The notes under the pieces: model-generated
Databases searched by the model: none
What the model was told of the DNA's origin: nothing
Seen by the model: only the letters and a program-made list of their open reading frames with translations
Source: Candidatus Polarisedimenticolaceae bacterium
GTDB lineage: Bacteria; Acidobacteriota; Polarisedimenticolia; Polarisedimenticolales; DASRJG01
DNA length: 64,000 bases
Direction: 5' to 3'
NCBI GenBank assembly: GCA_036275915.1
Contig: DASUCV010000018.1
Span: 417,054 to 481,053 of the forward strand
Shown here: in pieces, positions 18,541-18,564 of the stretch
Position numbering within the stretch: the stretch's first letter is position 1
Layout of the letters: each line of letters begins with the position of its first letter
Program-made: the position numbers and the translations under genes

Positions 18541-18564
18541 TCCTTTCGGCCTCGCGGGGCCGGA
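18541..18564 (-). promoter_or_regulatory. PyrR-binding RNA hairpin covering the pyrR ribosome-binding site
   Basis: The pyrR leader RNA reads UCC-GGCC-CCGCGA-GGCC-GAAA-GGA. The upper stem GGCC/GGCC (18561-18558 and 18551-18548) closes the hexaloop CCGCGA, which fits the PyrR consensus loop CNGNGA. A purine bulge GAAA follows. The lower stem UCC/GGA takes in the Shine-Dalgarno GGAG (18543-18540). Against the Bacillus consensus ARUCCNGNGAGGYU, the differences keep base pairing (A-U to G-C and U-G to C-G). Binding of PyrR-UMP should hide the ribosome-binding site of pyrR and lower pyrR-pyrB-pyrC expression. This is inference from sequence; no terminator follows, so the translational model fits better than attenuation. 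Confidence 0.75.

Follow-up and report, generated by a model that had tools for sequence, protein, structure and literature searches.

The pyr operon of Mycobacterium smegmatis is reportedly subject to PyrR-dependent translational repression. In that system the PyrR loop and the first ribosome-binding site of the operon overlap, and no terminator follows; both features were found at the locus described here. In attenuation of the Thermus type PyrR blocks a leader ORF. The consensus of the Bacillus PyrR-binding loop is ARUCCAGAGAGGYU (PMC7430163). A survey of RF00515 in 24 lineages (PMC3766115) has 'acidobacteri' nowhere in its main text, and a search by title and start of abstract, with most subscription journals outside its range, found no paper on PyrR leaders in Acidobacteria. 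For the present locus we consider it highly probable that pyrRBC is controlled by PyrR-UMP closing a hairpin over the pyrR Shine-Dalgarno, i.e. by translational repression.

Within the window, the whole analysed stretch of 64,000 nucleotides, the genes lie in the order pyrC-pyrB-pyrR on the minus strand (15764-18535). The PyrR protein (192 aa; 17957-18535, start AUG at 18535-18533) is an equivalog-level match to NCBIfam NF003549 with 248.6 bits against a cut-off of 138 (E 2.7e-74), while pyrB (17016-17960) matched NF002032 with E 1.1e-123 and pyrC (15764-17041) matched TIGR00857 above its cut-off with E 3e-134. The start codon of pyrB shares bases with the stop codon of pyrR (ATGA), and the first 26 nt of pyrC lie within the 3' end of pyrB. 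Divergent from pyrR are a pyrK-like gene, pyrD and pyrF on the plus strand (18612-21060, the coordinates used in the profile search), the first of them matched by pyrK models below their cut-offs. LpxK and lipid A acyltransferase genes at 50703-52615 support the prediction of a diderm, LPS-type envelope for the host. Further along the plus strand a frame of 1076 codons is open (35614-38844); it had no Pfam match at E 1e-5 and may not be a gene.

On the minus strand, 5' of pyrR, positions 18564 to 18541 read UCC-GGCC-CCGCGA-GGCC-GAAA-GGA. The initial annotation took these 24 nt for the entire element and drew a lower stem UCC/GGA that includes the Shine-Dalgarno and a GAAA bulge on the 3' side; in these points the comparison led to a different structure. 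The whole conserved leader element, a PyrR-type hairpin over the Shine-Dalgarno, spans 18537-18575 on the minus strand (covariance models R1 and R2, see below), and RNAalifold on ten leaders of the order gave a 12-pair fold identical to the hand-drawn one. According to the ten-leader alignment and RNAalifold the 5' strand of the lower stem is UUCCUU (18568-18573), and its 3' strand is the Shine-Dalgarno AAGGAG itself (18540-18545), 4 nt before the AUG at 18535. This stem was paired in 95.0% of the cells of the ten order leaders. Thus the overlap with the ribosome-binding site stood, while the proposed UCC/GGA pairing was replaced by UUCCUU/AAGGAG: UCC/GGA was rejected with 60% of cells pairing and a U-A pair in one of the ten sequences, that of the window. 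The alignment likewise places the bulge on the 5' side, as GAA at 18565-18567 (also by RNAalifold); across the order it reads UAA or GAA with both A unchanged in 10/10 leaders.

Above the bulge the bases U and C at 18563-18564 pair with 18546-18547 in the alignment, the U-A pair of the window being replaced by G-C in the other nine of the ten order leaders. A single bulged base separates this two-pair helix from the upper stem GGCC/GGCC in the RNAalifold structure of the order. The 5' strand of the upper stem (18558-18561; also seen by folding of the single sequence) and its 3' strand (18548-18551) were supported by the alignment and RNAalifold, and these four pairs were paired in 92.5% of the order cells; the window taken alone is able to form five pairs here. 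The terminal hexaloop CCGCGA (18552-18557) fits CNGNGA, as had been annotated, and CNGNGA followed by GG (CCGCGA-GG in the window) was present in 10/10 order leaders. The claim that departures from the Bacillus consensus preserve pairing was borne out as well, with all four stem pairs retained relative to ARUCCAGAGAGGYU.

The hairpin before pyrR is real and conserved. PyrR was found in 31 of the 41 genomes of the class and 30 leaders were read, the 31st match being a fragment without a locus. In all ten genomes examined from the order the hairpin lies immediately 5' of pyrR. Alignment of related leaders, proposed earlier as a check, showed conserved stems and loop and compensatory pairs within the order. 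Pairing was observed in 93.3% of the 120 cells of the ten order leaders versus 36.7-53.3% with the partner slid. Two compensatory pairs occur in the order, G-C to U-A at 18564/18546 in the window and G-C to A-U in L006; two genomes, L010 and L011, have a loop-closing A-G mismatch, which speaks against our preferred reading. The folding energy of the window alone did not separate from shuffles (z of -0.67, -0.11 and -1.10). We nevertheless regard the site as not due to chance because conservation, unlike folding energy, sets it apart.

Model R1, built with the window included, gave 54 bits for the window element. R2 is a leave-window-out covariance model from nine relatives of the order; it carries one mis-set pair, which should weaken the model and not favour the site. 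A scan of the host genome with R2 (4.53 Mb, 24 contigs, 98.36% complete) scored the window site at 44.7 bits with E 4.2e-8, and the next place reached 18.7 bits. The genome thus has one strong site, for one operon; places at or below 18.7 bits with R2 were not taken as further copies. In the same scan carB (55471-58698, minus strand), which lies downstream of the genes for L17, rpoA and S4, had no PyrR hairpin. Several other matches were taken as chance: a weak one at 50230-50270 of the window (19 bits) at the start of an HD-domain gene, an Rfam glutamine-riboswitch match on the plus strand of the same bases as the hairpin with 12.8 bits against a cut-off of 35, and two further Rfam matches far under their cut-offs.

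Covariation extends to the phylum. In alignment A9, which was fitted to the model and kept 38 of the 44 loci given (those dropped for want of a match at 0.01 are L101, L105, L109, L110, L123 and L143), 92.0% of the cells pair. Both sides had changed in 49 cells compared to 15.9 on shuffling, a value reached by 0/500 shuffles, and 8 of 12 pairs had both-side changes, reached by 20/500; compensatory changes in the upper stem are among these across the phylum. The smaller alignment A8 comprised 19 of 24 model matches. Its exclusion of E >0.01 cost three true hairpins (L021, L023, L025) along with two that were false, and L019 and L022 gave no match. Here 5 pairs had changed on both sides (59/500 shuffles reach this) in 21 cells (0/500).

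The terminator question decides between the possible outputs of such an element. No terminator-like site was found at 17900-18750 of the window, in agreement with the initial annotation, and in none of the ten order leaders does a run of 6 or more T separate the hairpin from the AUG; L007 has its T run on the 5' side of the hairpin. Because no terminator was found, occlusion of the ribosome-binding site by PyrR appears to be the best mechanism. AAGGAG lies 4-9 nt from the AUG in the ten order leaders (4 nt in the window). The energy needed to open the Shine-Dalgarno is 4.2 kcal/mol for the window and 2.0-7.3 kcal/mol across the order, plausibly the size where a bound protein could decide. Two calculations stand against our reading: when a longer leader of the window is folded, the Shine-Dalgarno pairs with coding sequence in the minimum-energy structure, and the mean probability that the Shine-Dalgarno is unpaired varied from 0.02 to 0.60 in the order, with 0.24 for the window.

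The chain of events that we infer, from transcription start and PyrR-RNA binding via UMP control to translational block and coupling, would be as follows. A single PyrR-binding hairpin would take up the first ~40-60 nt of the pyrRBC transcript, the 3' side of its lower stem being the pyrR Shine-Dalgarno. With UMP/UTP plentiful PyrR would bind to the hexaloop, the upper stem and the purine bulge on the 5' side and keep the hairpin shut, so that ribosome entry at pyrR would be blocked. Because pyrB overlaps pyrR and pyrC overlaps pyrB, translational coupling could carry the block from pyrR to the later genes, and repression would pass down the operon in this way, perhaps with the help of Rho. 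When pyrimidines are scarce the lower stem would breathe open and pyrRBC would be translated.

Leaders of the other families of the class are built differently. Of the 20, 14 have the hairpin further upstream, followed by a GC-rich inverted repeat (identified by eye) and 7-9 T before pyrR; the loop was 92-155 nt before pyrR in the 12 of these terminator-type leaders that were measured, and in L019 it is one base short. The hairpin is absent from the remaining six class leaders, L026-L031. RF00515, the only family reported, matched 6 of 12 terminator-type class loci with scores of 38.7-46.7 bits, short of the 54 set as its cut-off. Because these matches are independent of our reading by eye, they tie the module of the class to the known PyrR element. 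On the other hand, none of seven order loci matched RF00515, and this 115-position model had no match in the window or its genome, which counts against our reading. The T runs in 14/14 hairpin-bearing leaders of the other class families also favour the strongest rival, namely that PyrR binds the hairpin and the main output is transcription termination, either Rho-dependent after translation stops or at an undetected terminator inside pyrR. We consider this improbable: the window region and the ten order leaders lack the corresponding sites and T runs, and a Rho effect would come second to a translational block.

Two families of the class deserve mention in their own right. In f4 (L022, L023, L025) leader ORFs of 8 codons, MIPSPTGP, MRSNPTGP and MSLDPKTP, lie behind the hairpin and stop just before the terminator stem; they may be ribosome-dependent attenuators. 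In f12 (L029, L031) a terminator-like repeat and poly-T directly precede pyrR, no PyrR-like hairpin was found, and PyrR is devoid of the signature residues described below; a different leader element may be at work in these two.

In the phylum as a whole, 356 of 396 genomes yielded a PyrR, and the narrow order-level hairpin model matched in 33 of 396 at E <=0.01. The phylum is probably Acidobacteriota, since the PyrRs of two records titled 'Acidobacteria bacterium' (L169, L204) share 91% and 87.5% identity with those of two of its members. Sixty phylum leaders, picked from the better PyrR matches, were inspected. Terminator-type hairpin leaders occurred in families f13, f17, f23, f24, f28 and f38, and the hairpin was directly before pyrR in L097, L102, L103, L142 and L271. 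A third type, with the 3' strand of the hairpin (AAGAGG) before a short ORF, was seen in f25, f33, f37, f41, f51, f53, f61, f77 and f84. Fifteen leaders without poly-T (L096, L098, L101, L104, L105, L108, L109, L115, L121-L123, L128, L129, L137 and L143) have ORFs of 12-52 codons whose Shine-Dalgarno is covered by the hairpin and whose stop overlaps or abuts the pyrR start. In 15/15 the ORF end was -12 to +20 nt from the aligned pyrR start, compared to 0/30 in the other two frames; with shuffled spacers the rate is 63% per leader, and the limits were chosen with the data already in view, so the excess of leader ORFs ending at pyrR is suggestive. Such hairpin-covered ORFs abutting pyrR would possibly act as a relay by translational coupling. 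Among leaders that passed the filter (L009, L010 and L011 failed it, L019 was not included), a start codon followed the Shine-Dalgarno-like 3' strand by 2-14 nt in 8/8 order, 11/12 other class and 23/25 other phylum leaders, and in 32 of the 50 filter-passing records among 80 named ones. One genome, G037, has two pyrR copies with a match to the hairpin model at each (G037:C45:1087-1125 and G037:C227:767-805), either a duplicated gene or a mixed assembly.

The PyrR of the window carries T20, R21, H24, R141, K146, K152 and N153, its putative RNA-contact residues being intact. T20, H24 and K146 correspond to T18, H22 and R146 of B. subtilis PyrR, which mutagenesis reportedly marked as RNA-binding positions. 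Alignment of 70 PyrRs of the phylum to that of the window showed H24 (Y in two), K or R at 146, and N153 in 44/44 proteins encoded behind a hairpin, whereas none of the 26 without hairpin has all three and 23 of these have Q, E or H at position 146. Absence of the hairpin was checked in all 26 leaders by R1 without filters plus a pattern scan, R1 being narrow and overlooking true hairpins such as L019 and L022. The pattern scan did report CNGNGA candidates in part of the 26 (e.g. L028, L030, L091-L093, L131, L136 and L268); these were judged by eye not to be PyrR-like, with the following GG or the lower stem missing. An unguided ranking of 168 columns by divergence put N153 first, K146 second, L161 third, H24 fourth and T20 fifth; N153 was picked from the same data as it was tested on. 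Five putative contact columns (20, 24, 146, 152 and 153) were left out of the alignment for the tree, on which the signature state equals the hairpin state in all 70 rows. The hairpin changes 6 times on the best tree and 2 times on well-supported branches (sign test p 0.5). Thus the link of hairpin and signature is strict, yet clade-linked with few independent events. Outside the phylum 77 of 80 named PyrRs have the signature, a comparison that is uninformative because the search returned closest relatives; the strict hairpin test passed only 48 of these 80 records, and L222, one of the three without signature, has a hairpin and T at 146.

Taken together, the comparison within the order and the joint presence or absence of hairpin and PyrR residues support the original assignment as a PyrR-type hairpin. 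They also bear on a second rival, in which the hairpin is a constitutive brake on translation and PyrR acts solely as a uracil phosphoribosyltransferase. The cost of opening the Shine-Dalgarno might alone lower translation, but loop and bulge letters that are not needed for pairing are invariant in the order, and PyrR retains its putative RNA-contact residues wherever the hairpin exists while the full set is absent in 26/26 without it; we consider this account very improbable.

A stricter promoter scan of the region found no promoter. The best candidate of a -10 scan is TAGCAT (18595-18600, minus strand), 21 nt before the hairpin and weak as a promoter with 6 of 12 consensus letters. Hexamers of this kind (TAGCAT in 7/10 order leaders) end 8-28 nt 5' of the hairpin, in a scan that always returns a best candidate and with a TTGAC-type -35 at that spacing in only 5/10. 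If the hexamer is the promoter, the leader would barely exceed the hairpin, with little space for an attenuator. Positions 18595-18604 form the palindrome ATGCTAGCAT, in which the pyrR -10-like hexamer overlaps its mirror hexamer on the plus strand; the latter extends to a possible pyrK start codon (18604). The weakest rival, an operator working at the DNA level or a GC-rich inverted repeat that arose by chance, was already disfavoured and is scarcely credible: the site is just downstream of a promoter-like hexamer and GC-rich sequence folds readily, but the conserved loop and bulge are asymmetric, compensatory changes are present, held-out R2 finds one strong genome match, and the position over the Shine-Dalgarno is fixed.

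As the principle is already known from M. smegmatis, the window element is a well-supported further case, and the comparative picture across its relatives is more interesting than the single site. We offer one joint reading for the PyrR hairpin of this phylum, to which we give equal measures of belief and doubt. The hairpin would in essence be a lid on a Shine-Dalgarno, where evolution kept the RNA-protein contact and changed the ORF that it covers. In the window's order this would be pyrR; elsewhere it would be either a short leader ORF that stops at pyrR and hands translation over, without a poly-T terminator, or a leader ORF towards or through a terminator. His24, a basic residue at 146 and Asn153 would distinguish PyrRs that regulate through RNA from others that probably serve as enzymes alone. 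For many diderms of one phylum the analysis predicts control by PyrR, in three arrangements. With terminator and direct ribosome-site types in one class, the switch between transcriptional and translational control by the same RNA-protein pair becomes open to study, and the residue signature would be a simple test for which annotated PyrRs still regulate.

The initial annotation had called the element notable in a diderm, which was overstated. Matches to the hairpin model precede pyrR in records of Rokubacteria, Methylomirabilota, Meiothermus, Zixiibacteriota and Omnitrophota, with a terminator seen by eye after the hairpin in L166, L171, L172, L224 and L154. Hairpins of this kind, most of them with a terminator, are thus present before pyrR in several further phyla of diderms, and the setting is not rare. 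In L191, a Chloroflexi record, at least two CNGNGA hairpins stand in tandem; their loops lie 61 and 43 nt 5' of the aligned start of pyrR, and GAAGGAGG follows the hairpin nearest to the gene, at a short distance from pyrR; this is likely the ribosome-site type in another phylum.

With the Bacillus subtilis attenuators and RF00515 the window element shares the CNGNGA loop, an upper stem equivalent to ARUC/GGYU and a purine-rich internal bulge (PMC7430163). Unlike these it has one strong site instead of three, a covered Shine-Dalgarno and the AUG 4 nt after the stem, and because it has neither a terminator found nor an RF00515 match it does not qualify as an attenuator. The Thermus type resembles it in the use of the 3' strand of the hairpin as Shine-Dalgarno, seen in L172 (Meiothermus) and 11 of the 12 other class leaders scored, but in the order of the window there is neither leader ORF nor terminator, and the ORF behind the hairpin is pyrR. 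M. smegmatis differs in that the host of the window is a diderm of another phylum, has only pyrR-pyrB-pyrC behind the site and is known here from sequence. In both, the PyrR site lies over the first ribosome-binding site of the operon, without a terminator, and pyrR is the first gene.
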